NCBI RefSeq assembly: GCF_013177315.1
Contig: NZ_CP053661.1
Coordinates: forward strand, 2,728,001-2,792,000
Direction of reading: 5' to 3'
Origin: Thermoleptolyngbya sichuanensis A183
GTDB taxonomy: Bacteria; Cyanobacteriota; Cyanobacteriia; Elainellales; Elainellaceae
DNA length: 64,000 nucleotides
Below the pieces are notes generated by a model that saw only the letters and a program-made list of their open reading frames with translations, searched no databases and had not been told where the DNA came from. Made by a program: the position numbers and the translations under genes. Numbering within the stretch: the first letter of the stretch is position 1; the number at the start of each line of letters is the position of its first letter. Shown piece after piece: positions 7,262 through 40,531 of the stretch.

Positions 7262-7398
7262 ATGATTTAGTGGATGAGTGGTGGAATCAAGTCGGGAGAT
7301 GAGTGGGCGATCGCCCCTGTCATAAACTGCATAATTTCCAATTGCATTGTAGGTAAGATGAACCAGAAGTGTTGAAAGATAGCTCAACATACAAAAAA

Positions 7399-7428
7399 TG
7401 GGGGCAGAATATTGTATTCTAGCCCCCA
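7399..7428. promoter_or_regulatory. Hairpin inside the IS left end
   Basis: TGGGGGC pairs with a GCCCCCA copy across AGAATA/TATTCT, forming a nearly perfect stem-loop just before the transposase start. Such hairpins in IS elements commonly block transposase expression from outside transcripts. That role is inferred. Confidence 0.5.
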
Positions 7429-7441
7429 ACAAACAAAAACA

Positions 7442-20507: not shown

Positions 20508-21796
20508 CTGCTTGACTGACAAAACAGGTTAAAGCTGGAACGAAAGCCATGCGGGAAGCAGAGCATGATTTAGGCTGAGAAGTAACCACACAAACCAGTC
20601 AAATCAATGTCACCGACTTCCCGTCTTTATGATGCGTTGAATGATTTTCTGCGTCAATGCGACATGCAGTGGCAGGATGCTCGCCATCTGCAAACACTGT
20701 GCTGGATGATCATTGGCATGATTGGAAGCCAAAACGTTCATCTCAATGGATTTGGGGTGTATGTGAGGAGTCGCGCTCAAATGGCTCAATCCCACCAACG
20801 CCGGTTTCGCCGCTGGTTGTCGAATCGGCGGATCAATGTCGCGTCCGCTCATCATGCGCTGATTGGGCAGGCTCTGTCCAACTGGCAGACCCAACGACTC
20901 TACTTAAGCCTCGATACAACGGTCGTATGGAATTGTTTCTGCATCGTCTGGGTCGCAGTGGTGTACCGAGGAAGAACGGTTCCGGTCGCTTGGAAAGTGG
21001 TGGCGCAATCAAGCAGCACCGTCAGGTTGTGGACGATTCAACGGGTACTGCGGCAAGCGCAACGGCTGATGCCCGAGGGTGTCGCGATTGTCCTTTTGGC
21101 AGACCGAGGGTTTGCCGATGGCAAGTTGATGAAATACCTCCGGGAGAATCTGGGTTGGCATTTCCGCATCCGCATCAAACGCTCCTTCCAATTTCAGCAC
21201 CAAGGGCAGTGGCGCCAGGTATCGTCGGTTCAATTGCAACCAGGACAAGCTTACTTTACGCCTGCAGTGTCGGTGGGTAGAACAAAGCCCTACGACAATG
21301 TTTACCTTGCCTTTGCCCACGACAAACTCAGCAGCGAGAATTGGACAATTGTGAGTGATGAGCCGACGAACTTGCAGACGTTTGCCCAATATCGACTGAG
21401 ATTTCAGGTGGAGGAGTCGTTTTTGGATTTGAAGTCCAACGGGTTTAATCTCGAAGCCTCCAGACTCAGAGACAAGGTTGCCCTTTCCCAGTTGTGTGGG
21501 GTAATCGCCTTGACGATGCTGTTCTTAGTTCTCCAAGGGGTGCAAGTGGTCGCATCCGGCAAGCGTCGCCAAGTCGATGCTCACTGGAAGCGCGGCATGA
21601 GTTATCTCAAGCTGGGCTGGAATTGGATTCGGCTGGCTATCACTCACCAGTGGAAGATTCACGTTTATCAGTTCCTCTCCTGTTCACCTGACCCTCAACC
21701 TGCCATCGCATCAAGGCGACAACACGATGACTCCCTAAAGCGTGAATTCACTGTCCTCAGCCGTATTCCAGCTTCTTAGTTTTGTCAGTCAAGCAG
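20508..21796 (+). mobile_element. Second IS4-family-type element nested in IS copy 2
   Basis: The terminal repeats are CTGCTTGACTGACAAAA (20508-20524) and its complement (21780-21796). The 10-base target duplication GGCAGAATAT is seen at 20498-20507 and 21797-21806. It encodes a single 390-residue transposase. It is younger than the IS that contains it. Confidence 0.93.
20607..21779 (+). CDS. DDE transposase of the nested IS
   Basis: The protein has 390 residues. Likely catalytic residues are Asp in LYLSLDTTVVWN, Asp in IVLLADRGFADG and Glu in YRLRFQVEESFLDLKS, which also matches the IS4 Y-R-E-K signature. It is unrelated in detail to the transposase of the surrounding IS. The frame is intact. 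Confidence 0.92.
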   Translation: MSPTSRLYDALNDFLRQCDMQWQDARHLQTLCWMIIGMIGSQNVHLNGFGVYVRSRAQMAQSHQRRFRRWLSNRRINVASAHHALIGQALSNWQTQRLYLSLDTTVVWNCFCIVWVAVVYRGRTVPVAWKVVAQSSSTVRLWTIQRVLRQAQRLMPEGVAIVLLADRGFADGKLMKYLRENLGWHFRIRIKRSFQFQHQGQWRQVSSVQLQPGQAYFTPAVSVGRTKPYDNVYLAFAHDKLSSENWTIVSDEPTNLQTFAQYRLRFQVEESFLDLKSNGFNLEASRLRDKVALSQLCGVIALTMLFLVLQGVQVVASGKRRQVDAHWKRGMSYLKLGWNWIRLAITHQWKIHVYQFLSCSPDPQPAIASRRQHDDSLKREFTVLSRIPAS

Positions 21797-21835
21797 GGCA
21801 GAATATTGTATTCTAGCCCCCAGCAAACAAAAACA

Positions 21836-22819
21836 ATGTTTAAGATGCTAGTGTCATTTCCTGCGCTTGTCAAACCGATACTCAAGCAGTTGTGCCCACA
21901 TAACTATCCTGTTTTGAACTCTCGCTTATTCTTTGAAATCTGGTTGACCTTCGTTTTAGACCAGGGTTTAACGAGCATGAGAAGCCTGTTTTATCGTCTC
22001 AACAAAGCAGGAATCAAGGTTGATATTTCCACCTTTTCTAAAGCCTGCAAGACTCGACAGGATGAACACTTTTGTCGCATCTACGCTGAGCTCATAAGAC
22101 AGCTAAAACAAAAAAATCCAGCGACAGCACAGATGCTGTTTTCCATTGATTCAACGGTCATCACATTGACAAGCAAGTTGTTCTGGATGCAAGGCTATCA
22201 TCAAGTCAAATTGCTTAATGGAGTCAACTTAACGCAAGGTAATCCCAGTGAATGCCTGATTCATTTTGGTCAAGGACATGACGCAAAATTTGCTGACAGA
22301 GTGACAGGAATGATTCCTGAAGATGCCATCGGCGTCATGGATAGAGGCTTTGCCAGTTGGGATTTCCTTGACCAATTAAGCCAGGATCAGACTCGCTTTG
22401 TTGTCCGCCTTAAGAACACGATGAAGACCGAGTTTGAGCATGAGCGATATCGAGTGGTTTGGTTTTGTGACTTAGAGAGCCAAACGGAGTTTCGGCTGGC
22501 GACCAATGTAGAACTGATGACGAATGAAGAGATTAGTGAAGTCTATCGCCATCGGTGGCAGATAGAAGTGCTGTGGAAGTTTCTAAAGATGCACTTGAAG
22601 CTAGATAAACTAATCTCTAAGAGTGTCAATGGAGTCACCATTCAAATCTACATGGTGTTGATTGCCTATCTGATTCTGCAATTGATAGAAATTCCAGAGT
22701 TTTATGGTCATCAATTACTAGATAAGTTGCGCTATTTGCAACTTGAATTGAGTCGTCGTTGTTCGATTGTCCATTGGAGCTACGATCTGCTGCCAGAGAC
22801 ACTCGTAGGAGCTTCGTAG
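21836..22819 (+). CDS. IS4-family DDE transposase, copy 2
   Basis: This 327-residue protein is nearly identical to the one at 7442-8425. Signature YRHRWQIEVLWKFLK is present and the frame is intact. The nested IS has replaced the sequence upstream of its start hairpin, so its native promoter may be lost. Confidence 0.95.
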   Translation: MFKMLVSFPALVKPILKQLCPHNYPVLNSRLFFEIWLTFVLDQGLTSMRSLFYRLNKAGIKVDISTFSKACKTRQDEHFCRIYAELIRQLKQKNPATAQMLFSIDSTVITLTSKLFWMQGYHQVKLLNGVNLTQGNPSECLIHFGQGHDAKFADRVTGMIPEDAIGVMDRGFASWDFLDQLSQDQTRFVVRLKNTMKTEFEHERYRVVWFCDLESQTEFRLATNVELMTNEEISEVYRHRWQIEVLWKFLKMHLKLDKLISKSVNGVTIQIYMVLIAYLILQLIEIPEFYGHQLLDKLRYLQLELSRRCSIVHWSYDLLPETLVGAS

Positions 22820-23099: not shown

Positions 23100-23285
23100 C
23101 TACTGCTGCGGGTCGCTGGGCGTGCAGAGAAGCCATTCGTTTGGCGCGAATGCCATCATCAGAGGCATCAAATAGCCCAGCAAGGGGTAGAACAAGCCCC
23201 CAATTACAATTAACGGGAAAAATCCCAACATAATCCATTGAGAACGCTTGCCTTTGGATTTTTTAGCTTTGGCTTGTATCGTCAT
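23100..23285 (-). CDS. Small membrane protein of the arsenic-type operon
   Basis: This 61-residue protein has a basic N-terminus (MTIQAKAKKSKGKR), one or two hydrophobic helices (IMLGFFPLIVIGGLFYPLLGYLM) and a short tail with a single Cys (LLCTPSDPQQ). I do not recognise the family. It lies 94 bases before the disrupted transporter gene on the same strand and behind a palindromic operator, so it was probably co-transcribed with it. Confidence 0.6.
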   Translation of the reverse strand: MTIQAKAKKSKGKRSQWIMLGFFPLIVIGGLFYPLLGYLMPLMMAFAPNEWLLCTPSDPQQ

Positions 23286-23318
23286 TGAAGTGCCTTCCGT
23301 CTCAACTCAACTAACTAT

Positions 23319-23334
23319 ATAACTAAATAGTTAT
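23319..23334 (-). promoter_or_regulatory. Palindromic operator upstream of the arsenic-type operon
   Basis: ATAACTAAATAGTTAT is a 7-2-7 palindrome located 34 bases before the start codon of the small membrane protein gene. Size and place fit an ArsR/SmtB-family site. No arsR gene lies beside it now; it may have been lost in the IS rearrangement. Confidence 0.55.
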
Positions 23335-23370
23335 CAAAAAGACAATAGGCAATTGTACTTGTACACTGAA

Positions 23371-24887
23371 CTTTAGTTTGGACTAACTGGCATCACAATA
23401 ATGCTCAACAGGATGCCATAAAGAATCTGCTCAACCGTTCATAACAGTTGAACTTAAGGAATTGGATACAATCCTGCTCGCAGTTAAGCTGCTGTTGCAA
23501 CCGGACTGTTCAGGGATTGTTCGGATGTCTTGCGTTTCGAGGCTCGTTTTTTGACCATCGGATAGCAGGGACGAGGAGTTGGCTTGTGCCCCTTGCCTCG
23601 TCCTGGCGATTTACCACGAGGTTTAGGCGCAGGAGCAGGGGTGCCAATCGCTGCCAAAATGCCTGCAAACGCTTGTGCGACCCGACCCGGAGTCAACGTT
23701 TCTTGCGGTGCCTGCCAGGGCAAGGGGTGGTCAGTACAGTCCTTTCGCGCTAACCACAACTGCCAACTGAGCAACGGCATCAGGCTGCTCCACTGTTCGG
23801 TTGCCGATACAGAACTGAACTGGGGATGTGTCCAATATAGCCTCTGCTTGGCAAAGCGATACCAGTGTTCAATGGCAAAGCGACGGAGGTAGTGCAACCA
23901 CAGGGTTTCTAACGGAGGCATCTGCTCACCCAGCCAAACTAACCACAAAGGAGCCAAGCGTCGCGTGCTGCTCTGTGTCTCCAGCACCTCCACGCGCAAC
24001 ACTTCCATTGCCCGTTTGGGGGATTTGCGGAAATGGTATGCACTCCAACGACTGACCCGCACTCGTCCCCAGTTGGGATCATCGACTTCAACGGTTTCGA
24101 CCGGGACACTCCAAGTGTCAGGGTCATTGAGTTTCATCTTATGTCCATGCTTGGCAGGTGCGCCTCGCCCTCGATACGCTGGGGGCGCGCCATAGACACA
24201 TCGATTGGATGTAACCCGCAGCAGCAAGTCTGCCTCAATCCCTGCCGTTTGGTTGACAAAACTGGCATTGCCGTACCCTCGGTCGTAGATCGCCAACGGA
24301 CGCACCGCTAACTGCCGAGTCACTTGTTTGAGTTGGAATGCCGCTTTACTGGCGGGTGTTTCAAAGCTGGTGATGCGCTCATGCCGCAATGGTAATGCCC
24401 AACTGCCCCTGTCTTCAGCAATCCAGGCTAAGGTACTGTAGTTTTGTCCGGCTATCGGGGCATGTCCTGTTCTGCCTGATAAGGTGCGGTCTTTCAAACG
24501 CCTGGCAGCAGGACGGTTCCACCGACTCGCATCACCTGCCAACAACGGTTGCTGCTGAGTCGGTATCTGCTGCACCAACAGCTTCAGCACCTTTGATCGG
24601 GGTAGGCGGCTATCGCGCAACGCTTCATAGGTGCTCGACCACTGGCGACGAAAGACAGGACTCTGCGATAGCCTCACAAACGACACGATGCACGCACTCA
24701 CTAACACGGCATCCATCAGATCAAACAGGGCATCTCTGGCGTTTCCCAAGCTGGCATACAACGTTTGGCGAAATTGCTGAAGTTCGTTGAAAATCATGGG
24801 GTCAATGTTGGTTGTACTTCATTGACCTTACGGCAGTCGGTGCTTCTCATTGACTGCCTTCCTCTTCACCATTAGTCCAAACTAAAG
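23371..24887 (-). mobile_element. 1517-bp insertion sequence, copy A (inverted)
   Basis: The ends are CTTTAGTTTGGACTAA (23371-23386) and its complement (24872-24887). It encodes one transposase on the minus strand. An apparently identical copy of equal length lies in opposite orientation at 25337-26853. It truncates the methyltransferase gene to its right. Confidence 0.93.
23484..24797 (-). CDS. DDE transposase (IS701-like), copy A
   Basis: The protein has 437 residues. Likely catalytic residues are Asp in LLAGDASRWNRP, Asp in LAIYDRGYGNASF and Glu in RRFAIEHWYRFAKQRL. The tail is rich in Lys, Arg and Pro. The family is close to IS701/IS4-like DDE transposases, but I cannot place it exactly. 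It is identical in sequence to the protein at 25427-26740. Confidence 0.9.
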   Translation of the reverse strand: MIFNELQQFRQTLYASLGNARDALFDLMDAVLVSACIVSFVRLSQSPVFRRQWSSTYEALRDSRLPRSKVLKLLVQQIPTQQQPLLAGDASRWNRPAARRLKDRTLSGRTGHAPIAGQNYSTLAWIAEDRGSWALPLRHERITSFETPASKAAFQLKQVTRQLAVRPLAIYDRGYGNASFVNQTAGIEADLLLRVTSNRCVYGAPPAYRGRGAPAKHGHKMKLNDPDTWSVPVETVEVDDPNWGRVRVSRWSAYHFRKSPKRAMEVLRVEVLETQSSTRRLAPLWLVWLGEQMPPLETLWLHYLRRFAIEHWYRFAKQRLYWTHPQFSSVSATEQWSSLMPLLSWQLWLARKDCTDHPLPWQAPQETLTPGRVAQAFAGILAAIGTPAPAPKPRGKSPGRGKGHKPTPRPCYPMVKKRASKRKTSEQSLNSPVATAA

Positions 24888-25303
24888 TGAGGCGTGTAGG
24901 CTTCCAAAACAAAGGCTCCACCCGTCACCAATCCTGCGACAGCAGCGCGGTGCAACGGAACCCGCACTTCGGGCGGTAGATGGGCAAAGATAGAGACAAT
25001 CCCTTGCCATTGGTTGGGATGAATCGTGTACTCTTTCAAATCAGCACAACAGATTTCGAGGCTAACCCCCCGCTCATCCGCTAATCGACGCGCCTTCTGC
25101 AAGCCAACGCTGGAAAAGTCAACCGCCGTGACCGAGTAGCCCTTCTCTGCCAGGAAGACTGCGTTTCGCCCTTCCCCTTCCGCCAAGCACAGAACCCATC
25201 CCAATGGAATGCGATCGACAACGCTGCTCAAAAAATCGTTGGCAGTTGTGCCATAGACATAATCCTCTACCTCGTAGCGCTTATCCCAGGGGTTCATGAT
25301 CAA
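24888..25303 (-). pseudogene. SAM-dependent methyltransferase, 3' end lost at IS
   Basis: The frame starts at 25303 with MIMNPWDKRYEVEDYVYGT and has the SAM-binding LCLAEGEGRNAVFLAEKGY and VTAVDFSSVGLQKARRLA motifs of a class I methyltransferase (tellurite/thiopurine-resistance-like group). It runs into the IS end after LEAYTPHF, losing about the last third. A promoter-like TTGACC lies just upstream next to the other IS copy. Confidence 0.8.
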
Positions 25304-25336: not shown

Positions 25337-26853
25337 CTTTAGTTTGGACTAATGGTGAAGAGGAAGGCAGTCAATGAGAAGCACCGACTGCCGTAAGGTC
25401 AATGAAGTACAACCAACATTGACCCCATGATTTTCAACGAACTTCAGCAATTTCGCCAAACGTTGTATGCCAGCTTGGGAAACGCCAGAGATGCCCTGTT
25501 TGATCTGATGGATGCCGTGTTAGTGAGTGCGTGCATCGTGTCGTTTGTGAGGCTATCGCAGAGTCCTGTCTTTCGTCGCCAGTGGTCGAGCACCTATGAA
25601 GCGTTGCGCGATAGCCGCCTACCCCGATCAAAGGTGCTGAAGCTGTTGGTGCAGCAGATACCGACTCAGCAGCAACCGTTGTTGGCAGGTGATGCGAGTC
25701 GGTGGAACCGTCCTGCTGCCAGGCGTTTGAAAGACCGCACCTTATCAGGCAGAACAGGACATGCCCCGATAGCCGGACAAAACTACAGTACCTTAGCCTG
25801 GATTGCTGAAGACAGGGGCAGTTGGGCATTACCATTGCGGCATGAGCGCATCACCAGCTTTGAAACACCCGCCAGTAAAGCGGCATTCCAACTCAAACAA
25901 GTGACTCGGCAGTTAGCGGTGCGTCCGTTGGCGATCTACGACCGAGGGTACGGCAATGCCAGTTTTGTCAACCAAACGGCAGGGATTGAGGCAGACTTGC
26001 TGCTGCGGGTTACATCCAATCGATGTGTCTATGGCGCGCCCCCAGCGTATCGAGGGCGAGGCGCACCTGCCAAGCATGGACATAAGATGAAACTCAATGA
26101 CCCTGACACTTGGAGTGTCCCGGTCGAAACCGTTGAAGTCGATGATCCCAACTGGGGACGAGTGCGGGTCAGTCGTTGGAGTGCATACCATTTCCGCAAA
26201 TCCCCCAAACGGGCAATGGAAGTGTTGCGCGTGGAGGTGCTGGAGACACAGAGCAGCACGCGACGCTTGGCTCCTTTGTGGTTAGTTTGGCTGGGTGAGC
26301 AGATGCCTCCGTTAGAAACCCTGTGGTTGCACTACCTCCGTCGCTTTGCCATTGAACACTGGTATCGCTTTGCCAAGCAGAGGCTATATTGGACACATCC
26401 CCAGTTCAGTTCTGTATCGGCAACCGAACAGTGGAGCAGCCTGATGCCGTTGCTCAGTTGGCAGTTGTGGTTAGCGCGAAAGGACTGTACTGACCACCCC
26501 TTGCCCTGGCAGGCACCGCAAGAAACGTTGACTCCGGGTCGGGTCGCACAAGCGTTTGCAGGCATTTTGGCAGCGATTGGCACCCCTGCTCCTGCGCCTA
26601 AACCTCGTGGTAAATCGCCAGGACGAGGCAAGGGGCACAAGCCAACTCCTCGTCCCTGCTATCCGATGGTCAAAAAACGAGCCTCGAAACGCAAGACATC
26701 CGAACAATCCCTGAACAGTCCGGTTGCAACAGCAGCTTAACTGCGAGCAGGATTGTATCCAATTCCTTAAGTTCAACTGTTATGAACGGTTGAGCAGATT
26801 CTTTATGGCATCCTGTTGAGCATTATTGTGATGCCAGTTAGTCCAAACTAAAG
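25337..26853 (+). mobile_element. 1517-bp insertion sequence, copy B
   Basis: CTTTAGTTTGGACTAA (25337-25352) and its complement (26838-26853) bound this copy, which is inverted relative to copy A. It removes the 5' end of the gene to its right. No direct target duplication flanks it. Confidence 0.93.
25427..26740 (+). CDS. DDE transposase (IS701-like), copy B
   Basis: The 437-residue sequence is the same as that of copy A on the opposite strand, and the frame is intact. Identical copies imply very recent transposition or gene conversion. Confidence 0.9.
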   Translation: MIFNELQQFRQTLYASLGNARDALFDLMDAVLVSACIVSFVRLSQSPVFRRQWSSTYEALRDSRLPRSKVLKLLVQQIPTQQQPLLAGDASRWNRPAARRLKDRTLSGRTGHAPIAGQNYSTLAWIAEDRGSWALPLRHERITSFETPASKAAFQLKQVTRQLAVRPLAIYDRGYGNASFVNQTAGIEADLLLRVTSNRCVYGAPPAYRGRGAPAKHGHKMKLNDPDTWSVPVETVEVDDPNWGRVRVSRWSAYHFRKSPKRAMEVLRVEVLETQSSTRRLAPLWLVWLGEQMPPLETLWLHYLRRFAIEHWYRFAKQRLYWTHPQFSSVSATEQWSSLMPLLSWQLWLARKDCTDHPLPWQAPQETLTPGRVAQAFAGILAAIGTPAPAPKPRGKSPGRGKGHKPTPRPCYPMVKKRASKRKTSEQSLNSPVATAA

Positions 26854-30498: not shown

Positions 30499-30530
30499 GC
30501 TATACCTCATCTCTTTAGTCCAAAACTAAA

Positions 30531-30629
30531 GGGCACCTCGATTAATTGCCTTATTGAGAATTTTAGGAGCCTGAAAATCTCGTTTTCTCGTAGCCATTCT
30601 CAAGAGAATCTGAATTTTTCGAGGTGCCC
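30531..30629. mobile_element. 99-bp MITE with GGGCACCTCGA ends
   Basis: GGGCACCTCGA (30531-30541) is matched by its exact complement (30619-30629) with an AT-rich centre containing an inner hairpin (GAGAATTTTAGG region). Just left of it, at 30513-30530, lies CTTTAGTCCAAAACTAAA, close to the tip of the 1517-bp IS. No coding capacity. Confidence 0.65.
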
Positions 30630-30662
30630 TTAAGCTTTAAGGCAAATTTTTCGTTTTCCAAT

Positions 30663-30682
30663 ACATAGCCATATGGTGATAT
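30663..30682 (+). promoter_or_regulatory. Probable weak BigR/SqrR-type operator
   Basis: ACATAGCCATATGGTGATAT resembles the sites at 37313, 37399 and 39563 (TATTACC, four bases, GGTAGTA). It lies 100 bases upstream of a persulfide dioxygenase gene. The left half is weaker. Confidence 0.4.
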
Positions 30683-30781: not shown

Positions 30782-31483
30782 ATGCTATTTCGCCAACTTT
30801 TTGATGAAGCCACCTGGACTTATACCTACCTGATTGCTGACCCAGACACGAAGGAAGCCATCCTGGTCGATCCCGTGGCCGAACAAGTGGAGCGCGATCT
30901 GCGTATCTTGAAAGAATTGGGACTGACTCTGCGCTACTGTTTGGAAACTCACATCCATGCTGACCATGTTACGGGTACGGGCAAGCTGCGGGATGCTACA
31001 GGATGTTTGGGGATCGTTCCTGCAAATGCCCAAGCGACTTGTGCCGATCGCTTTATCCAGGATGGCGAAGTGCTGCAAATGGGTTCAATTCAGATTGAGG
31101 CGATCGCCACTCTGGGCCACACCGACAGCCACATGGCGTATCTGGTCAACGGGACGCATCTGTTGACGGGTGACTCCCTGTTCATTCGCGGCTGCGGACG
31201 TACCGACTTTCAAAGCGGCAATGCCGGGGCCATGTACGATGCCATCACCCAACGCCTGTTTACCTTGCCGGATGAAACGCTGGTATATCCAGGACATGAC
31301 TATAAGGGCGAAACGGTCTCTACGATCGGCGAAGAGAAGCAGTGGAATCCTCGCTTTGTGGGGCAAACGCGGGAAAGCTTTGTTGACCTGATGGCAAACC
31401 TCAACCTGCCCAATCCCAAGAAGATTATGGAAGCGGTGCCCGCTAATCAGGAATGCGGCAAAGTGGCGATCGCGGCTCGATAG
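30782..31483 (+). CDS. ETHE1-like persulfide dioxygenase (metallo-beta-lactamase fold), paralog 1
   Basis: This 233-residue metallo-beta-lactamase fold protein has ETHIHADHVTG (metal-binding HxHxDH), a His in LGHTDSHMAY, the bridging Asp in LLTGDSLF and a His in YPGHDYKG. With GRTDFQSG these match persulfide dioxygenases, mononuclear iron enzymes that oxidise glutathione persulfide to sulfite. AAAGGAG lies upstream of the ATG. A paralog lies at 36448-37146 within the same island. A terminator follows. Substrate assignment is from family and context. Confidence 0.88.
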   Translation: MLFRQLFDEATWTYTYLIADPDTKEAILVDPVAEQVERDLRILKELGLTLRYCLETHIHADHVTGTGKLRDATGCLGIVPANAQATCADRFIQDGEVLQMGSIQIEAIATLGHTDSHMAYLVNGTHLLTGDSLFIRGCGRTDFQSGNAGAMYDAITQRLFTLPDETLVYPGHDYKGETVSTIGEEKQWNPRFVGQTRESFVDLMANLNLPNPKKIMEAVPANQECGKVAIAAR

Positions 31484-31588: not shown

Positions 31589-31676
31589 GAACTTACGCAC
31601 TTGCGATACGCTCTTTAGGTTTTGGACAGTTTCTCACGGGCTGCGCCCGTGAGAAACTGTCCAACTGCGTAAGTCC
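31589..31676. mobile_element. MITE with ACTTACGCA ends, copy 1
   Basis: The element runs from AACTTACGCACTTGCGAT to CAACTGCGTAAGTCC, with a central perfect hairpin TTTCTCACGGGC/GCCCGTGAGAAA. The element at 61870-61956 is the same type in reverse orientation. Confidence 0.8.
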
Positions 31677-31717: not shown

Positions 31718-32731
31718 TTACTCTGTGTAGTGGACTCCAGAAACCTTACCTCGGAACACGATGTAGTTGTAGATGTTGTAGAACAGCATGATTGGAATCA
31801 GAAAGCCAATAAAGATAATCATGAAAACAAGTGCGCTGGGAGCCGCTGCTGCTTGATAGATAGTGATATCAGGCGGAATGATGTAGGGAAACACAACCAA
31901 TCCCAATCCTACAAAAGTAAGCAAAAAGAGTAAGATCGTCCAAATTAGCGGAGTCACTTCAGCTTTCCGATTCAAGCTCCTCAGCAATAGCCCAACTAGC
32001 ACGATCCCCAATGCAGGAATCAGCGCAAAGATATATACTTCTGGCTGATGAAACAGCTTGGCTCTGGCGTTTTCATAGACCACAGGCGTGACGATCGTAA
32101 TCAAGACTGCACCAATTAAGGTAGTGATGGCTGCTAGCTTTGCAGTGCGGTAGTGCGTGTTTTGAAGTTCTCCGTCGGTTTTGAGGATTAGGTACGTCGA
32201 GCCAATCAAAACATATCCTTGAATGAGTGTGAGAGCGACCAAGAGCGATCGCCAATCGAGCCAGTCCCAAATGCTTCCAACAAAGTGGCCAGCTTCATCG
32301 ACCGCAATTCCCTCCAAAACACTACCTAAAGCAAAACCCTGAAACAGGGCTGCCGTAAAGCTCCCCACACCAAACGCTAGATTCCAAAACACCTTGTTGG
32401 TGGAATGTTCTCGAAATTCAAAAGCAACGGCTCGAAAAATCAAACCAAAAATCATCCCAAAAATTGGAATATAGAGTGCATTTAAGATCGTGCCGTAGGC
32501 AAGGGGAAACGCTCCAAATAAGGCTCCGCCCATCAGTACCAACCAAGTTTCATTCGCATCCCAAACATTTCCCAAGCTGGTCATGAGAATGCTGCGTCGT
32601 TCTTCATCAGAACTCGTCAGCGACAAAATACCCACACCTAAATCAAAGCCATCTAGCATGACATAAAGGAACAGGAACAGAGCCAAGATGACAAACCAGA
32701 CCTGTGTTAGAAAGTGTTCTAAATTTTCCAT
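31718..32731 (-). CDS. cydB: Cytochrome bd ubiquinol oxidase subunit II
   Basis: This 337-residue integral membrane protein has about eight to nine helices. The N-terminal FLYVMLDGFDLGVGIL and NVWDANETWLVLMGG are hallmark segments of CydB, which packs against CydA. It starts about 60 bases after cydA, so the two form an operon. With CydA it reduces O2 to water using quinol. The enzyme type is relatively insensitive to sulfide and cyanide, which fits the sulfide-oxidation genes around it. Confidence 0.96.
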   Translation of the reverse strand: MENLEHFLTQVWFVILALFLFLYVMLDGFDLGVGILSLTSSDEERRSILMTSLGNVWDANETWLVLMGGALFGAFPLAYGTILNALYIPIFGMIFGLIFRAVAFEFREHSTNKVFWNLAFGVGSFTAALFQGFALGSVLEGIAVDEAGHFVGSIWDWLDWRSLLVALTLIQGYVLIGSTYLILKTDGELQNTHYRTAKLAAITTLIGAVLITIVTPVVYENARAKLFHQPEVYIFALIPALGIVLVGLLLRSLNRKAEVTPLIWTILLFLLTFVGLGLVVFPYIIPPDITIYQAAAAPSALVFMIIFIGFLIPIMLFYNIYNYIVFRGKVSGVHYTE

Positions 32732-32789: not shown

Positions 32790-34232
32790 TTACTGCTGGG
32801 CTTCAATAGGGCGTTGGTCAGGAATAAATTTAGCGGGTTCTGTCTCTACCGCAGGTTGATTCTCGATTCCCGGCACAGGCAATTCTAGGTTGGGGCCCTG
32901 ACGAATAATGCGACTGCCAAAAAATAGCGCACAGATAAACAGGGTCGTATACACGGCTGCAAAAACTAGCAGGGATGTCAACACCTCGCTCGCAGGCAAG
33001 TTGGAAACCCCCTCCGCTGTGCGAATTTGCCCGTACACCACCCAGGGCTGTCGTCCTACACAGCGCACAATCCATCCCGATTCTACGGCAATGTAGCCCA
33101 AGGGAGCCGCCAGTAGCCAGGTTCGCAATAGCCACTTTTGGTGGGCGATCGCCTCTGGTGCAAACTTGCCCCGCAGCCATTGAATCACACTCACCCCCAT
33201 CAAGCCCGCCAAGAAAAAGCCAATCCCGCTCATGATGCGGAACGAGTAATAAACCAAGCCCACCATTTCGGGTCGGTCGTCTGGCTGCCATTCTTTAAGG
33301 CCCAAAACAGGTTCAGAGAGGTTTTTCTTAAACTCCAAAATGTAGCCCAGTCCATTAGGAATAGAAATCTCCCAGTCGTTTCGCTCCAGCTTGTTGTTGG
33401 GCAACGCCACCAAGCTCCAATCCGCAGGTTGTCCCGCTGGGCTGGTTTCCCACTTGGCTTCCATTGCGGCTAGCTTAGTTGGCTGGTAGTGCGCTACCTG
33501 CTCGGCACTGAGGTGCCCAATGTAAATCTGCAAGGGAGTGACGGCGATCGCCACTGCCACTGCAATTTTGAGCGATCGGGCAAAGAACTCAGGATGGCGG
33601 TGGTTGAGAATATACCAGGCACTAATTCCGCCAATGACAAACAGCGACGTTTCCAAGGTTGCGAAGAACATATGGGAAACGCTGATGAACATGAAGGGAT
33701 TCAAAATCGCCTGAAAGTAGTCATCTACAATGAACTTTCCGTTGACAAGCTCTCCACCTGCGGGTGTTTGCAGCCAAGAATTTGCCACCAAAATCCAAAA
33801 TGTGGAAAGGTTCGCACCAAAAGCAACCATAATGGTGGAGAAATAATGAATGACTGGATGCACTCGCCCCCAGCCAAAGAGCATAATCCCCAGAAATCCA
33901 GCTTCGAGCATGAAGGCCATTGCGCCTTCAAACCCCAGAATGCTGCCAAAAAAATCGCCCACTGCTTCTGAAAAAGGGGCCCAGTTCGTGCCGAACTGAA
34001 ACTCCATGGGCAAGCCAGAGGCAACACCAATGCCAAAGTTTAGAACATATAGTTTCGACCAGAAACGGGCGTGGCGGTAGTAATCTGGATTTTTCGTCCT
34101 CAGCCACAATCCTTCAACCACAACAAGGTAGATTGCCATACCTGTTGTAAGAACGGGCCAGAGCATGTGAAAGATAGCCGTCAAAGCAAACTGCATTCGC
34201 GACAGTGCGACAGTATCAGCCCAGATAGCCAT
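32790..34232 (-). CDS. cydA: Cytochrome bd ubiquinol oxidase subunit I
   Basis: The protein has 480 residues. Visible heme and quinol regions include the N-terminal His in LTAIFHMLWPVLTTG (heme d/b595), Glu in EGAMAFMLEAGFLG, VSHMFFATLETS with the heme b558 His, and GRQPWVVYG with the nearby region around the Met ligand. The Q-loop is short, as in CioA-type enzymes. It is followed by cydB. The high-affinity bd oxidase would consume O2, useful both for nitrogenase protection and for quinol produced by SQR in the same island. Confidence 0.96.
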   Translation of the reverse strand: MAIWADTVALSRMQFALTAIFHMLWPVLTTGMAIYLVVVEGLWLRTKNPDYYRHARFWSKLYVLNFGIGVASGLPMEFQFGTNWAPFSEAVGDFFGSILGFEGAMAFMLEAGFLGIMLFGWGRVHPVIHYFSTIMVAFGANLSTFWILVANSWLQTPAGGELVNGKFIVDDYFQAILNPFMFISVSHMFFATLETSLFVIGGISAWYILNHRHPEFFARSLKIAVAVAIAVTPLQIYIGHLSAEQVAHYQPTKLAAMEAKWETSPAGQPADWSLVALPNNKLERNDWEISIPNGLGYILEFKKNLSEPVLGLKEWQPDDRPEMVGLVYYSFRIMSGIGFFLAGLMGVSVIQWLRGKFAPEAIAHQKWLLRTWLLAAPLGYIAVESGWIVRCVGRQPWVVYGQIRTAEGVSNLPASEVLTSLLVFAAVYTTLFICALFFGSRIIRQGPNLELPVPGIENQPAVETEPAKFIPDQRPIEAQQ

Positions 34233-34302: not shown

Positions 34303-35082
34303 TCATCGCTTGATGAGAACAAAAACGGCGACCGCTAACACGAAGTAACCGAACCCTTTTTCAAGCTGCTTGGCACTGACGAATTGATTTAAGTAAGATC
34401 CTAGAAGAATCCCAGCGCTAGAGGCGATTGTAAAAGACAAAAGCAAGGTCCAATCAATCGGAACATGACCAAAGTATCCGGCAAACCCAGTAACGGATTT
34501 TAGCGCCAGGATAATTAGGGACGTTCCCACAGCTTCTTTCATGGGGGTTTTTCCTAGCAGCACCAAGGCCGGAATCACCAGAAACCCACCCCCAATACCG
34601 ATGAAGCCTGTGAGGGTGCCAACGGCAAGACCTTCCAGAGCAATTGCCAACCATTTAGGAATAACTGTGTGGCGATCAGAATGCCCGGCCTTATCGAGCG
34701 GGTTTTCTGATTTGCTGGCTCCTTTGCGAATCATGGTAATTGAGGCGATCAGCATCATGACTCCAAAGGTCACAAGCTGAATTGTAGGGGTGATAAATGG
34801 CAACGAGGCTAACCTCGCTCCCAGATAAGCCCCTAGCATGGAAGCAGGCGCAAACAGCGCGATAATTTTAGGATTGACATTGCCTTGTCGCCAGTGAGGA
34901 ATCGCACCAATCAAGCTTGCAACTCCCACAATGACCAAAGTCATGGCAAAGGCAGATTTTGCAGGGACGGACATGACATAGATCAGCACAGGAGCCGCCA
35001 AGATCGACCCACCCCCACCAATCAACCCCAGGCTAATGCCAATACAAATTGCCAGCAAATGCCCAATGACAGTAATTAACAT
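34303..35082 (-). CDS. TauE/SafE-family anion exporter
   Basis: This 259-residue protein has about eight helices and two pseudo-repeats, each starting with a Gly-rich helix (GLIGGGGSILAAPVLIY; GFIGIGGGFLVIPALVLLG). These are characteristic of the TauE/SafE family. Members export sulfite, sulfoacetate or related anions. Beside persulfide dioxygenase, rhodanese and SQR genes it would plausibly export the sulfite made by the dioxygenase. The direct substrate is inferred. Confidence 0.9.
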   Translation of the reverse strand: MLITVIGHLLAICIGISLGLIGGGGSILAAPVLIYVMSVPAKSAFAMTLVIVGVASLIGAIPHWRQGNVNPKIIALFAPASMLGAYLGARLASLPFITPTIQLVTFGVMMLIASITMIRKGASKSENPLDKAGHSDRHTVIPKWLAIALEGLAVGTLTGFIGIGGGFLVIPALVLLGKTPMKEAVGTSLIILALKSVTGFAGYFGHVPIDWTLLLSFTIASSAGILLGSYLNQFVSAKQLEKGFGYFVLAVAVFVLIKR

Positions 35083-35333: not shown

Positions 35334-35918
35334 TCAAACGCGCTGGTTGTAAGGCAGTTTAGCCAGCAGCATTCCTAATGCACAGGTATTCGTAATCCCA
35401 GCAAACACCAGACCAGCACCCACAAAACCGCTAAGGAACAAAAACCAGGGAGAGACAAACGCACCCAGTAAAGTGCCAGTTACGACCAGCGAACCTGCGA
35501 CAATCTGTACCTGGCGCATCAGGCTAATGGGGGCACGTTTGTTTACCTCAGTTGGAAACCCGGCCTGCACCCAAGCCGATAATCCACCTTCCAAATGGGT
35601 CACTTCATCGATTCCTGCTGCGAATAATTTCTGTGCCGCCTGAGCCGATCGATTACCTGTTCGGCAATACAGCACCACAGTTTTGTTGCCATCCTTGTTG
35701 CCATCAAACGGAATGCGATTCGGATCGAATTTGGACAACGGCACTAGGATTGAGCCAGGGATTTTTTCGCCCGCATGTTCAGAGGGTTCGCGAACATCAA
35801 CTAGCGTGACGGCTTGTTGGCTCAATAAGGTACTCAGGGAGGATGGATCAACGGTTTTTAGGCGATCGCGCTGAGTTTGGCTGGAATAGTTGAAACCGAT
35901 CTCATTCATGCTCGTCAT
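35334..35918 (-). CDS. Rhodanese with C-terminal DUF2892 membrane anchor (YgaP-like)
   Basis: The rhodanese domain of this 194-residue protein (about 20-125) has VDVREPSEHAGEKIPGS and catalytic Cys in VLYCRTGNRSAQA. The C-terminal 60 residues (QVQIVAGSLVVTGTLLGAF; FLFLSGFVGAGLVFAGI) form the DUF2892 two-helix anchor with CALG at the end, as in YgaP. It moves sulfane sulfur at the membrane. GGAG before ATG 35918 supports the start. It overlaps the upstream DUF442 gene by 17 bases, so it is in that operon. Confidence 0.92.
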   Translation of the reverse strand: MTSMNEIGFNYSSQTQRDRLKTVDPSSLSTLLSQQAVTLVDVREPSEHAGEKIPGSILVPLSKFDPNRIPFDGNKDGNKTVVLYCRTGNRSAQAAQKLFAAGIDEVTHLEGGLSAWVQAGFPTEVNKRAPISLMRQVQIVAGSLVVTGTLLGAFVSPWFLFLSGFVGAGLVFAGITNTCALGMLLAKLPYNQRV

Positions 35919-36390
35919 TAGACGCTCCTAACTGCTCAAAATTTTGAGTGATGTAGTCTACAAAAAATCGCTTGACACCAGGGCGACTGTTAAAGTCCAA
36001 GCCCATCGCCGTTGTTCGGTGCAGAAATTCTTCGACGGTCATGCCCCGCTCAACGCCAGACCGCAGCAGCGCAATCCCAGCCGAGCGCAGCCCCAGTGAG
36101 CAGTGCATCAAAACTGGCTTTGGGAGCTGATCAACGTGTTCACACACCTGAGCAATAACCTCACCGCTCAGACTAGAGGGATTTACAGGAACATGGGCGT
36201 ACTGCATTCCCAACGATTCCACAATCTGCGGCTCATCGGGCAGGAATCCCTTCTCCTTTGGCATCCTCAGATTGATCACTGATTTGAAGCCCTGGTGAGA
36301 TGCCTGCTGCAACTGCTCTGGGCTAAGCTCTCCGGCCACAGAAACGTCTGCGTCTATCCGGTGGATGCCAACTAGCTGCATTTCGTTCAT
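35902..36390 (-). CDS. DUF442/TIGR01244-type phosphatase-like protein
   Basis: This 162-residue protein has a dual-specificity phosphatase-like fold with LMHCSLGLRSAGIALL as the Cys-x4-Arg signature of the DUF442 family. These domains are often fused or adjacent to persulfide dioxygenase (Blh proteins), where they likely act on sulfur species and not on phosphate. It sits between a persulfide dioxygenase gene and a rhodanese gene, in the order expected for a bigR/blh-like operon. The true reaction is not established. Confidence 0.85.
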   Translation of the reverse strand: MNEMQLVGIHRIDADVSVAGELSPEQLQQASHQGFKSVINLRMPKEKGFLPDEPQIVESLGMQYAHVPVNPSSLSGEVIAQVCEHVDQLPKPVLMHCSLGLRSAGIALLRSGVERGMTVEEFLHRTTAMGLDFNSRPGVKRFFVDYITQNFEQLGASNDEHE

Positions 36391-36447: not shown

Positions 36448-37146
36448 CTAGCTGGTTACCAGCACATTGCCACACTGTTCATTTGCGGGAACAGCTTCCA
36501 TGATTTTCTTTGGATCAGGCAGATTCAGCCCGTTCATAAACTCTATGAACTGATCGCGGGTTCGCCCTGTAAAGCGCGGGTTCCATTGTTCTTCTTCAGC
36601 AATCGTGGAGACGCTGTGGCCGCGATAGTCGTGAGCCGGGTACACAAGCGTACCATCCGGCAGCGTAAACAGGTTCTCTGTTACGGAGTCATACAGTGTC
36701 CCTGCATCGCCGCTTTGGAAATCAGTCCGTCCGCAGCCCCGAATAAACAATGCATCGCCCGTTAGCACTCGGTCGCCATTCACCAGATACGCCATGTGGC
36801 TATCGGTGTGTCCTGGAGTGGCGATCGCCCGAATTTCAACTTCTCCGACCTTCAAGACTTCCCCATGCCGGATGTGGCGGTTGGCACAAGCAACCTGCGC
36901 CTTTTCCGGCACAATCGTTTCACAGCCCGTTAGCTCCCGAAGTTTGCCAGCCCCCGTGATGTGGTCAGCATGGACGTGGGTTTCTAGGCAGTATTTCAAG
37001 ATCAATCCCAATTCATTAATCAGCTTGTAATCGCGCTCGACCTGTTCAATCACGGAGTCCACCAAAACGGCTTCCTTGGTCTTGGGGTCAGCAATCAAAT
37101 AGGTGTAAGTCCAGGTGTCTTGATCAAAAAGTTGTCGAAATAGCAT
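36448..37146 (-). CDS. ETHE1-like persulfide dioxygenase, paralog 2
   Basis: The protein has 232 residues and clear similarity throughout to that encoded at 30782-31483. Motifs are ETHVHADHITG, PGHTDSHMAY, TGDALFIRGCGRTDF and YPAHDYRG. It heads the minus-strand operon with the DUF442 and rhodanese genes. An operator-like palindrome lies at 37313-37332, upstream of it. The two paralogs start the same way (MLFRQLFD), so they come from a duplication. Confidence 0.9.
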   Translation of the reverse strand: MLFRQLFDQDTWTYTYLIADPKTKEAVLVDSVIEQVERDYKLINELGLILKYCLETHVHADHITGAGKLRELTGCETIVPEKAQVACANRHIRHGEVLKVGEVEIRAIATPGHTDSHMAYLVNGDRVLTGDALFIRGCGRTDFQSGDAGTLYDSVTENLFTLPDGTLVYPAHDYRGHSVSTIAEEEQWNPRFTGRTRDQFIEFMNGLNLPDPKKIMEAVPANEQCGNVLVTS

Positions 37147-37312: not shown

Positions 37313-37332
37313 TAATTACCATATAGTAATAT
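37313..37332 (-). promoter_or_regulatory. BigR/SqrR-type operator for the dioxygenase-rhodanese operon
   Basis: TAATTACCATATAGTAATAT is a palindrome of the same pattern as the sites at 37399 and 39563, about 167 bases before the 36448-37146 start codon and about 48 before the micro-ORF. It is the minus-strand-side member of a pair of sites in the divergent gap. Confidence 0.55.
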
Positions 37333-37398
37333 AGTTTAAGATTTAATTTTCGTCAAGCCGCCGAAATGGATTTAAGATTTTCTTTAGAAGAGACAACT

Positions 37399-37418
37399 AT
37401 ATTACCAACTGGTAGTAT
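37399..37418 (+). promoter_or_regulatory. BigR/SqrR-type operator for sqr
   Basis: ATATTACCAACTGGTAGTAT is an inverted repeat (TATTACC, four bases, GGTAGTA) located about 70 bases before the sqr start. A nearly identical site lies in front of the ArsR-type regulator at 39563-39582. Confidence 0.7.
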
Positions 37419-37488
37419 GGTACACATAGTAAATATCTTACGTCATCAACTCATTTTCTACACCCTTCGTTACATTTGAGGAACTACC

Positions 37489-38817
37489 GTGTCACCGACT
37501 GCACAGCAAACCCAATCAACCCACCCTGCTGAACAGCTTCATCAAAATCTCTCGACCGCCGAGGCGATCGCCCCGCCCGTGAAGCACCACCAAATTGTGA
37601 TTGTGGGAGGAGGAGCAGCCGGAATCACGGTTGCGGCCCAACTGCTGAAGCGAAACCGCGCTCTGGATATTGCCATCATTGAACCGTCCGACAAACATTA
37701 CTACCAACCTGGCTGGACGCTGGTGGGCGGCGGCGTGGCTCCGATTGAGAAATTCATTCGAGATGAAAAAGATGTCATTCCCAAGGGGGCAAGCTGGATT
37801 CAAGCGCGAGTCGCAAAACTAGACCCCGATCGCAACACGGTCATCACCGAAGCCGGCCAAGCCATTGAGTATGAGTACTTGGTACTATGCCCTGGCATTC
37901 AAATTGACTGGCATTTGATTAAAGGCTTAAAAGAAGCGCTGGGTCGAGGCGGAGTCACCAGTAACTACTCCAAAGATTACGCCCCCTACACCTGGGAAAC
38001 CATCCAAAACTTCAAAGGCGGGAACGCCCTCTTTACCTATCCCGCCACGCCGATCAAGTGTGGCGGTGCGCCTCAGAAAGTGATGTATATGGCCGATGAC
38101 ACCTTCAAGCGCAAGAGCGGTGTCGGAGTGAACACCACAGTGATGTTCTGCACCGCTGGGGCCTCTATGTTTGCTGTACCAGAATATGCAGCCGCTCTGG
38201 ATAAAGTGGTGGCGCGGCGCGGCATTGTTACCAAGTTCAAGCACAACCTTAAGGAAATCAAGGCAGACACACAAGAAGCAATTTTTGATGTCACCACCGA
38301 TAACGGCACTGAGGAAGTCAGCATTCACTACGACATGATTCATGTGGCTCCCCCCATGAGTGCCCCCGATTTTATCAAGCAAAGCCCGTTGGCTGGGGCC
38401 GGTGGCTGGGTGGATGTTGATCAGGCAACGCTACAACACACTCGCTATGCCAACGTGTTTTCACTCGGCGATGCGTCTTCTTTGCCGACCTCTAAGACAG
38501 CCGCCGCAGCCCGAAAAGAAGCGCCAATCGTGGTTCAGAACTTGCTGTCTTTGATTCAGTCGCAGCCGATAACCGCAGAATATGACGGCTATACCTGCTG
38601 TCCCCTCATCACAGGCTACAACTCAACCATCATGGCAGAGTTTGCCTATGGTGGAAAGTTGGCTCCCTCGTTTCCGCTTGATCCGACCCAAGAACGCTAC
38701 TCAATGTATTTGGCAAAGGCCCATGTGTTGCCCTGGTTGTACTGGAATCGCATGCTAAAGGGTGAAGGATTTGAAGCGGATATTTTCAAGCCCATCAACC
38801 GACTGCTCCGGCGCTAA
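37489..38817 (+). CDS. sqr: Sulfide:quinone oxidoreductase
   Basis: This 442-residue flavoprotein has FAD-binding IVIVGGGAAGITVAAQLLKR after a 33-residue N-terminal extension, HYYQPGWTLVGGG and Cys in TPIKCGGAPQK. A late FAD region (VFSLGDASSLPTSKTAAA) and the YTCCPLITGYN segment are those of SQR, closest in pattern to type II (SQRDL-like) enzymes. It oxidises sulfide to polysulfide or persulfide and reduces quinone at the membrane. GAGGA six bases before a GTG at 37489 gives the start. The operator at 37399 suggests sulfide- or persulfide-responsive control. Confidence 0.93.
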   Translation: MSPTAQQTQSTHPAEQLHQNLSTAEAIAPPVKHHQIVIVGGGAAGITVAAQLLKRNRALDIAIIEPSDKHYYQPGWTLVGGGVAPIEKFIRDEKDVIPKGASWIQARVAKLDPDRNTVITEAGQAIEYEYLVLCPGIQIDWHLIKGLKEALGRGGVTSNYSKDYAPYTWETIQNFKGGNALFTYPATPIKCGGAPQKVMYMADDTFKRKSGVGVNTTVMFCTAGASMFAVPEYAAALDKVVARRGIVTKFKHNLKEIKADTQEAIFDVTTDNGTEEVSIHYDMIHVAPPMSAPDFIKQSPLAGAGGWVDVDQATLQHTRYANVFSLGDASSLPTSKTAAAARKEAPIVVQNLLSLIQSQPITAEYDGYTCCPLITGYNSTIMAEFAYGGKLAPSFPLDPTQERYSMYLAKAHVLPWLYWNRMLKGEGFEADIFKPINRLLRR

Positions 38818-39073
38818 ACGAGATTGCGAAGCTAAACGAGATTGCGGAGGGGATGGGCAGCGACCATCCCCTCAAGGATCGGGCAGTTCCCTGTGTTTTA
38901 AGGTTGGCGATCGCGTCTACTACACTGGTTCAGATGCCAAGCTTCTGTGCGATTACGGAAACCAAGTGCTGGAAATCATCGCCCTAGATGCAAAAACGAG
39001 GCGAGTTGTCTGTCAAACGACTCGTCTCGAGCAAGTTGTCGGAATTGCATTTGATGATCTCAGCAAACGCTAG
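38762..39073 (+). CDS. Small SH3-like hypothetical protein, start uncertain
   Basis: The 3' part encodes CFKVGDRVYYTGSDAK, LLCDYGNQVLEI and VVCQTTRLEQVVGIAFDDL, which reads like a small SH3/KOW-type beta-barrel found in cyanobacteria. The open frame can be drawn from a GTG inside sqr, but its first 40 codons cross a terminator-like hairpin (38847-38873) and a short duplication (AAACGAGATTGCG twice). The true product therefore probably starts later from a non-ATG codon, or the gene is damaged. Function unknown. Confidence 0.4.
   Translation: MKDLKRIFSSPSTDCSGAKRDCEAKRDCGGDGQRPSPQGSGSSLCFKVGDRVYYTGSDAKLLCDYGNQVLEIIALDAKTRRVVCQTTRLEQVVGIAFDDLSKR
38847..38873 (+). terminator. Hairpin downstream of sqr
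   Basis: GAGGGGATGG (38847-38856) pairs perfectly with 38864-38873 across a 7-base loop, 30 bases after the sqr stop. No T run follows. Confidence 0.55.
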
Positions 39074-39528
39074 CGGCTCTGCCTTAGCTGTGATAATTGC
39101 TGAAGTTGTTGACTCTGCTGTTCAACTTGCATCGTCAGTGCATCACAAACCAAATCGCACAGTTCAAACAGAAATGGATTGGCAATGCGATAGTAAACAC
39201 AGACTCCACGCTGCTCGCGGGCAACCACCCCAGCTTGAGTCAGCATTTTCAGATGCTTAGACACATTCGCCTGTCCCAAGCCTGTTTCTTCGATAATCTC
39301 TGTTACATTCTTAGCGCCTGTTTTCAGAGAACATACGATCTGAAGGCGACTCACTTCTGATAAAACTTTGAAGAAGTCTGCCATCAGGCTTAATGCTTGG
39401 GGAGTGAGTTTAGAAATACCGCACTCATTGACTAGGTTTGCATGGGCTAGGCTCCCATCTACTTGTTCTGGCGCTCTTTCTTGAACCGCAACAGGCTTTC
39501 TGGATGATTTTGTAGGCATGGGAGGCAT
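39070..39528 (-). CDS. ArsR-family BigR/SqrR-like persulfide-responsive repressor
   Basis: This protein of about 152 residues has a winged-helix core, LMADFFKVLSEVSRLQIVCSL, then ETGLGQANVSKHLKMLTQAGVV (recognition helix) and VCVYYRIANPFLFELCDLVCDAL. Cys in QIVCSL and Cys in FELCDLVC are placed like the two sensing cysteines of SqrR/BigR, which form a polysulfide bridge and release DNA. It is divergent from the YeeE/YedE genes with a palindromic site between them. Starts at 39528 or 39519 are both possible; longer frames run into the operator. Confidence 0.88.
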   Translation of the reverse strand: MPPMPTKSSRKPVAVQERAPEQVDGSLAHANLVNECGISKLTPQALSLMADFFKVLSEVSRLQIVCSLKTGAKNVTEIIEETGLGQANVSKHLKMLTQAGVVAREQRGVCVYYRIANPFLFELCDLVCDALTMQVEQQSQQLQQLSQLRQSR

Positions 39529-39562
39529 TCCGCAACTTGCGATAGATCCATTTCTTATTACT

Positions 39563-39582
39563 ATATTACCACACGGTAGTAG
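39563..39582. promoter_or_regulatory. BigR/SqrR-type operator between the regulator and YeeE/YedE genes
   Basis: ATATTACCACACGGTAGTAG repeats the pattern of the site before sqr, with TATTACC and GGTAGTA half-sites four bases apart. It lies 35 bases upstream of the regulator start and 30 upstream of the channel gene start, so it could control both. Confidence 0.7.
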
Positions 39583-39611: not shown

Positions 39612-40028
39612 ATGGCACTGTTGGACAGACTATCGGCATTATTGGGCGGCGGGCTGATTGGTCTTAGCGCGACGGTTTTGTTGTTGCTGAGTGGTCGCAT
39701 TGCGGGCATTAGCGGCATGGTGAATGGGGCAATTACCTTTCGCAAAGCAGAAGCTTGGCGATGGAGTTTTATTTCTGGGTTGTTGTTGGGCGCTGCGCTG
39801 TATGAGTATGGCTTTGCAGTGCAGCCTACACCTCGTTCTACGTTTGCACCGATCGCCATGCTTGTGGGGGGACTGTTGGTTGGCTGGGGAACCCGCATGG
39901 GAAACGGCTGCACGAGCGGTCATGGGGTCTGTGGGCTGGGACGCTTATCGGGGCGATCGCTGGTGGCCGTCCTCACGTTTTTAATCACTGGAATGCTTAC
40001 AGTGTTTGTGATTAGACATGGTTTGTGA
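39612..40028 (+). CDS. YeeE/YedE-type sulfur channel, first half (PmpA-like)
   Basis: This 138-residue membrane protein has four helices. NGCTSGHGVCGLGRLSGRS carries the conserved Cys pair of the YeeE/YedE (DUF395) family, channels that take up thiosulfate or sulfane sulfur compounds by relay through cysteines. GGAGAG precedes the ATG. The second half is encoded separately 60 bases downstream, so the transporter is of the split, two-gene type. It was likely controlled by the ArsR-type regulator next door. Confidence 0.9.
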   Translation: MALLDRLSALLGGGLIGLSATVLLLLSGRIAGISGMVNGAITFRKAEAWRWSFISGLLLGAALYEYGFAVQPTPRSTFAPIAMLVGGLLVGWGTRMGNGCTSGHGVCGLGRLSGRSLVAVLTFLITGMLTVFVIRHGL

Positions 40029-40087: not shown

Positions 40088-40531
40088 ATGAAAAACCATC
40101 TAGCAGCACTCATTTCGGGCATTCTGTTCGGCTTTGGGTTAGGACTATCGCAAATGATCGATCGCGATCGCGTTCTCGGATTTCTCGATGTAGCAGGTGC
40201 ATGGGACCCAACGTTGCTGTTCGTTTTGGGAGGGGCAGTTGGCGTTACGCTGATTGCGTTCCGTTTTGTACTCAAGCGATCGCGTCCCTTATTTGCCGAT
40301 AAATTTTATCTTCCTACTAAACGAGAGCTTGATTTGCCGCTGGTTGTGGGTGCGGCAATTTTTGGCATCGGCTGGGGGATTTCGGGCTACTGCCCAGGGC
40401 CAGCGATTGCAGCACTGGTTTTAGGAATTTGGAATCCGGTTTTGTTCTTGATTGGCATGATTGTGGGTTCTCTTGCTCAAAAATGGACAGTAGCTCAAAG
40501 TCAAACTGGCCAGAAGACCGAGTTGAGATGA
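40088..40531 (+). CDS. YeeE/YedE-type sulfur channel, second half (PmpB-like)
   Basis: This 147-residue protein has four helices. GLGLSQMIDRDRVLGFLDVAG and GISGYCPGPAIAALVLG are the signature segments of the C-terminal half of YeeE/YedE. Its single Cys in GYCPGPA corresponds to one of the relay cysteines. It must pair with the first-half protein to form one channel. It is the last gene of the sulfide island on this side. Confidence 0.9.
   Translation: MKNHLAALISGILFGFGLGLSQMIDRDRVLGFLDVAGAWDPTLLFVLGGAVGVTLIAFRFVLKRSRPLFADKFYLPTKRELDLPLVVGAAIFGIGWGISGYCPGPAIAALVLGIWNPVLFLIGMIVGSLAQKWTVAQSQTGQKTELR

Follow-up and report, generated by a model that had tools for sequence, protein, structure and literature searches.

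An ArsR/SmtB-family regulator of 152 residues, designated P0001, probably represses a sulfide regulon in the cyanobacterium Thermoleptolyngbya sichuanensis A183, acting through a shared 20-base palindrome with the consensus ATAYTACY-N4-RGTARTAT and being released from it by persulfide or polysulfide. The regulon itself is well supported: the sites are strong, conserved across cyanobacteria, placed before sulfur genes and found together with the regulator, and a match lies in the region bound by the regulator SuoR. P0001 very probably acts like the sulfide sensors SqrR and BigR in controlling sulfide-burning and sulfur-exporting genes, but it belongs to a branch separate from SqrR and BigR, which differs from them in its DNA site and in where its sensing cysteines lie.

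Within the window, the whole 64,000-nucleotide stretch of DNA that was analysed, the sulfide gene cluster spans 30.7-40.5 kb; the cyanobacterial chromosome on which it lies is 5.5 Mb long. The genes of the cluster, in window coordinates, are as follows.

30782-31483, plus strand: pdo1, a second ETHE1-type persulfide dioxygenase (PF00753; 70% identical to pdo2)
31718-32731, minus strand: cydB-like subunit (sequence reading and gene order only), without its own site
32790-34232, minus strand: cydA-like bd-type quinol oxidase subunit (sequence reading and gene order only), without its own site
34303-35082, minus strand: TauE/SafE sulfite exporter (PF01925, 170.6 bits), without its own site
35334-35918, minus strand: rhodanese with YgaP-like transmembrane domain, 3' of pdo2 (PF00581, PF11127)
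35902-36390, minus strand: DUF442/BLH-phosphatase-like sulfurtransferase, 3' of pdo2 (PF04273, 40.8 bits; TIGR01244, 57 bits, under the cut-off)
36448-37146, minus strand: pdo2, persulfide dioxygenase of the ETHE1 family (phmmer to ETHE1 structure 4chl, E=3e-67, and to related MBL-fold structures)
37489-38817, plus strand: sqr, sulfide:quinone oxidoreductase (phmmer to mitochondrial SQR structures, E=1e-127)
39070-39528, minus strand: ArsR/SmtB-family regulator P0001, 152 aa (PF01022, NF033788, fold model)
39612-40028, plus strand: YeeE/TsuA-like transporter half, PmpA-like (PF04143; weak match to the TsuA model)
40088-40531, plus strand: DUF6691 transporter half, PmpB-like (PF20398, 139.8 bits)

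The sqr gene is present in a single copy in the host genome, and its product is closest to the mitochondrial type of SQR. The TauE/SafE gene possibly belongs to the pdo2 transcription unit, and the cydAB-like genes are possibly read through from pdo2. The convergent ends of pdo1 and cydB are separated by a probable terminator, an inverted repeat whose 20-bp arms match perfectly around a loop of 3 nt (31622-31664). An imperfect inverted repeat of 26 bp (arms 30522-30547 and 30613-30638) was observed between a MerR-family gene and the pdo1 operator, and was not apparent 5' of the other pdo1 orthologs aligned. Elsewhere in the window, two apparently identical 437-aa transposase-like ORFs lie in opposite orientation (23484-24797 and 25427-26740) with a SAM-methyltransferase-like ORF (24872-25303) between them.

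Four copies of the palindrome had been proposed in an earlier note, which placed all of them in promoter regions of sulfur genes. When the window sequence was re-read, all four were located at those places, and their positions relative to the genes agreed with that description.

30663-30682: predicted operator O4 (weak), ACATAGCCATATGGTGATAT, 100-119 bp 5' of pdo1; 11.8 bits, fifth in the 64 kb
37313-37332: predicted operator O1, TAATTACCATATAGTAATAT, in the pdo2/sqr intergenic region; 22.5 bits, third in the 64 kb
37328-37356, minus strand: predicted sigma-70-like pdo2 promoter, TTGACG-17-TATATT (promoter scan; consensus match only, mean 0.8 in shuffles)
37399-37418: predicted operator O2, ATATTACCAACTGGTAGTAT, centred 80 bp 5' of the sqr start codon; 25.0 bits, first in the 64 kb
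39563-39582: predicted operator O3, ATATTACCACACGGTAGTAG, in the intergenic region that separates the regulator gene from the divergently transcribed yeeE-like gene; 23.3 bits, second in the 64 kb

O1 overlaps the -10 element of the pdo2 promoter predicted by the scan, an arrangement that fits repression by occlusion, and the placement of O3 suggests that the regulator gene is autoregulated. A further site-like palindrome, ATATAACTAAATAGTTATCA, was observed at 23317-23336; it scored 13.5 bits, a level at which 0.06 sites are expected per 64 kb, and lies about 30 bp 5' of a 61-aa ORF (23100-23285, minus strand). This ORF is followed by an apparent BASS-type transporter, which is interrupted by two transposase genes (20607-22819).

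Sites were scored with a weight matrix trained solely on sites 5' of regulator genes in other genomes. No site of at least 22 bits occurred in 110 Mb of simulated order-2 Markov DNA, and 0.14-0.19 sites per 64 kb are expected in such DNA at about the score of the weak copy. A pattern search that tolerated as many as 3 mismatches covered the 5.5 Mb host genome; sites as weak as that at 30663 are beyond its reach. All of the 32 places found were scored, and those above 17 bits were the three window copies only. A host site at 835088 (16.5 bits), flanked by a lipA-like gene and a response regulator gene, was set aside as chance level (0.55 expected at 16.5 bits or more), and the remaining host-genome places, at 14 bits or less, were likewise at chance level. 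The weaker copy that had been reported before the gene of dioxygenase 1 is present as O4. It is independently supported by stronger sites at the matching position before the pdo1 orthologs (proteins 94-99% identical) of three genomes, G022, G154 and G005, which scored 20.7, 17.2 and 13.8 bits, respectively; the DNA around these sites has otherwise diverged, so that the sites stand out as a footprint.

Conservation was assessed at 80 loci from relatives, where a site was defined as a match of at least 14 bits no more than 350 bp upstream of a gene. Sites were found upstream of the regulator gene in 53 of 79 cases, of sqr in 13 of 18, of pdo in 16 of 22 and of yeeE in 2 of 5, whereas 1.1% of random windows carried a site in the same test. 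The rhodanese, cydA, cydB and DUF442 genes had no upstream site in these loci at the same threshold and distance, as is to be expected if they lie inside an operon. The 26 of 79 regulator genes that lack such a site count against the regulon model. In most relatives the regulator-gene site lies at about -40 to -60. A site 80-81 bp upstream of sqr also occurs in L008, L009, L010, L112, L123, L129 and L168, and the two-site pdo2-sqr promoter is kept in seven relatives with a site spacing of 84-86 bp.

The proposal had been held open to refutation by a motif equally frequent at unrelated sites. Instead, 80 of the 105 sites in the relatives' loci precede listed sulfur or regulator genes, and in a pattern search that was not seeded by regulon genes, 22 of 30 loci adjoin sulfur-regulon genes. 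The latter count was tallied by eye from the table and includes the regulator itself in addition to pdo, sqr, a second sqr-like gene, rhodanese, tauE, yeeE, DUF302, DUF2892/YgaP-TM and petC. Among 195 cyanobacterial genomes, with sites counted at up to 1 mismatch, the site occurred in 66 of the 107 genomes that have the regulator and in 13 of the 88 that do not (Fisher p=1.5e-11), compared with 30/107 and 14/88 for a reversed-pattern control (p=0.06). Because these genomes share ancestry, the p-values overstate independence, but the contrast within the host's own family agrees in direction, with the site in 11 of 12 genomes with the regulator and 1 of 10 without it. The 41 of 107 regulator-bearing genomes with no site at this mismatch level count on the other side. 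What sequence comparison supports in the proposal is that the sites exist beside these genes, are conserved and occur together with the regulator.

The closest characterised counterpart of P0001 is SuoR of Synechocystis sp. PCC 6803 (pSYSM, WP_011153572.1), which is likewise a cyanobacterial ArsR-family protein encoded next to sqr. SuoR binds the suoSR/suoCT intergenic region and represses both gene pairs, as related in PMC4307280 with reference to Nagy 2014. In 30 kb of pSYSM, the sole strong match to the palindrome, ATACAACTATGTAGTTATAT (20.9 bits, L172:16400), lies between suoS and suoC, and the next match scored 6.3. This match inside the SuoR-bound region is the best support for the palindrome as an ArsR operator. 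Both regulators have the palindrome in a divergent promoter region, their recognition helices are nearly identical, with SQANVSKHL in SuoR and GQANVSKHL in P0001, and the SuoR regulon includes a DUF302 protein, as do the relatives' loci L020, L036 and L196. In contrast, SuoR is 35% identical to P0001 and lacks C66 and C128. SuoR, a possible ortholog of P0001, forms a long neighbouring branch outside the P0001 clade, in a tree with long branches where its grouping near that clade is weak. The SQR on the SuoR side has been called type I (PMC4307280), whereas the window SQR is mitochondrial-like; SuoR is also tied to arsenite metabolism, and its regulon as described has no pdo.

P0001 scored over the ArsR cut-offs (46.8 bits for PF01022, cut-off 22; 80.6 bits for NF033788, cut-off 55), and its AlphaFold model (pLDDT 79.6) is a winged helix with the ArsR helices and wing. 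Foldseek matched the model to Rv0081, SmtB, SqrR (6o8k, E=2.8e-6) and BigR, a comparison that does not separate ArsR subtypes. The closest relatives of the regulator come from Leptolyngbyaceae and similar groups. On the BigR family model NF040642, P0001 reached 40.0 bits against a cut-off of 155 and was no better than other host ArsR paralogs (38-51 bits), although two BigR-like plasmid proteins themselves score only 101 and 112 on this model. The search for BigR relatives used as bait a hand-composed BigR-like consensus of 81 residues. BigR (Xylella/Agrobacterium) resembles P0001 in its ArsR fold and in the alignment of its first sensing cysteine, and a BigR-like plasmid locus (L181) has the same gene content, with an MBL-fold enzyme, YeeE and DUF6691 by the regulator. 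However, the BigR recognition helix reads GQPTLSQQL, and its second cysteine stands where P0001 has T132. SqrR (Rhodobacter capsulatus), SoxR and sHdrR (Hyphomicrobium) and YgaV (E. coli) are also ArsR-fold repressors of sulfide genes; the SqrR/YgaV operator, ATTC-N8-GAAT (PMC9774250), differs from the palindrome assigned here to P0001, and SqrR also has another recognition helix. The original description of a BigR/SqrR-like regulon therefore holds for the sulfide regulon, on comparative evidence, and for its function, but not for the family, given the NF040642 score, the helix, the operator and the second cysteine.

Among the 80 P0001 orthologs, C66 and C124 are each present in all 80 and C128 in 77, while C110 and C36 are not conserved. 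C66, in helix 2, aligns without gaps with the first sensing cysteine of SqrR (C41) and BigR (C42). The place of the second sensing cysteine (SqrR C107) is taken by T132 in P0001 and by a cysteine in none of the 80 orthologs. C124 and C128, both in helix 5, lie 8 and 4 residues before T132, or two and one helical turns earlier, so that the distance from the first cysteine is 58 or 62 residues, compared with 66-67 residues between the sensing cysteines of SoxR and YgaV (50/116, PMC10451225; 31/98, PMC9774250). The cysteines of the regulator had been said to occupy the expected sensing places; this is correct for C66 and incorrect for the C-terminal cysteine. Because C124 and C128 are displaced from the SqrR/BigR position, the bridging established for those sensors may not apply to P0001.

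In the proposed mechanism, a P0001 dimer would, without sulfide, sit on the palindrome and thereby shut off, at their promoters, sqr, pdo2 and pdo1 together with the YeeE/DUF6691 transporter genes and the gene of P0001 itself. The pdo2 unit would carry the sulfurtransferase, the rhodanese and perhaps tauE-cydAB downstream. On entry of sulfide, SQR and thiol chemistry would raise persulfide and polysulfide levels, which would modify C66 and C124/C128, most likely bridging them. The modified P0001 would then leave the DNA, and the detoxification genes would be expressed. That P0001 is the protein that binds, that it represses and does not activate, and that persulfide is what it senses are the elements of this scheme that we infer.

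The same cysteines would also be compatible with a different ligand. P0001 could be a soft-metal or arsenite sensor in which C66, C124 and C128 make up a three-thiol site, and the sulfur genes would then respond because arsenite and sulfide stress are linked, as for SuoR. Three near-invariant cysteines could form an As(III) site, P0001 does belong to the ArsR/SmtB family, and the SuoR regulon has an arsenite transporter (PMC4307280). We consider this reading improbable, since no ars gene was seen beside sites in the relatives' loci examined, the site-linked genes nearly all handle persulfide, sulfite or sulfide, and C128 is missing in 3 orthologs.

Operator-like sites in relatives were also observed before genes of other functions. 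They precede petC (Rieske) variants at L146, L162, L163, L205, L233-L235 and L261, and several of these sites are divergent from a second sqr-like gene. A site of at least 14 bits was present in 7 of 30 petC-like loci, and in three of them it scored 25.2 bits and stood at -54. In Planktothrix (L047, L048, L064, L071 and L072), operator-like sites at ~7290-7490 lie in the divergent promoter region of the low-oxygen pigment genes acsF and heme oxygenase, a few kb from the regulator gene. Peroxiredoxin (L155) and DUF302 genes are also preceded by a site in relatives. Among 30 psbA loci, L139 only had a site (L139:1501-1520, 19.5 bits), 33 bp 5' of a psbA whose D1 has L186 and Q130, and a general link to psbA was dropped on the basis of this count. 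At L140, the distance of the site to pdo is 40 bp, compared with 200 bp to psbA, and the site was thus assigned to pdo. Grim and Dick 2016 (PMC5061849) noted that 27 sqr genes lie close to arsR-like genes, and speculated that sqr and variants of psbA are controlled jointly; no operator sequence was found in that paper.

The sites before acsF, heme oxygenase, petC variants and one psbA, and the possible co-transcription of cydAB with pdo2 in the window, would suit a general redox or low-oxygen sensor of the RexT kind that works by a plain disulfide and controls the sulfide genes within a wider response to anoxia. RexT of Nostoc PCC 7120 is, like P0001 as proposed here, a cyanobacterial ArsR thiol sensor. 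However, the RexT cysteines C40/C41 on helix 3 and its operator ATTCG-N15-CGAAT (PMC8960804) both lack a counterpart in P0001, whose sequence contains no vicinal CC pair of the C40/C41 type, and sqr and pdo form the conserved core of the targets. This explanation too is improbable, and a joint regulon for sulfide and low-oxygen remodelling is possible but not established.

The sites might instead be bound by an ArsR paralog that shares the recognition helix of P0001. The host paralog L002 (G000:C1:3869092) carries the helix SQANVSKHL and a CxxxC in helix 5, and could on that account bind the same site. It lacks C66, however, none of the host sites is at L002, and no sulfur genes were seen in the surrounding 3.3 kb. 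As the site stands in the promoters of the P0001 gene and its orthologs and its presence tracks those orthologs, binding by such a paralog is highly unlikely. That the palindromes are chance repeats, of the AT-rich kind that intergenic DNA commonly holds, is contradicted by their scores against simulated DNA, their conservation, the association tests and the pdo1 footprint, and has next to no probability.

The preferred reading thus remains P0001 as the persulfide-responsive repressor of the sulfide regulon. A broader extension of it, in which P0001 represents a cyanobacteria-wide sulfide switch with a third type of sensor (C66-C124/C128), and some lineages couple sulfide oxidation to an exchange of photosynthetic parts, namely an alternative Rieske protein (petC), the low-oxygen acsF and heme oxygenase and, in one genome, a D1 protein (psbA), is advanced tentatively and may well prove too wide. 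A defined operator and regulator family would make the control of sulfide use in cyanobacteria directly testable, and they allow targets to be predicted in many species whose genomes are sequenced. P0001 is a candidate sulfide-sensor part. If the proposal is true, the gene set run by BigR-type regulators would in cyanobacteria be run by a different ArsR branch, through another site and with displaced sensing cysteines.
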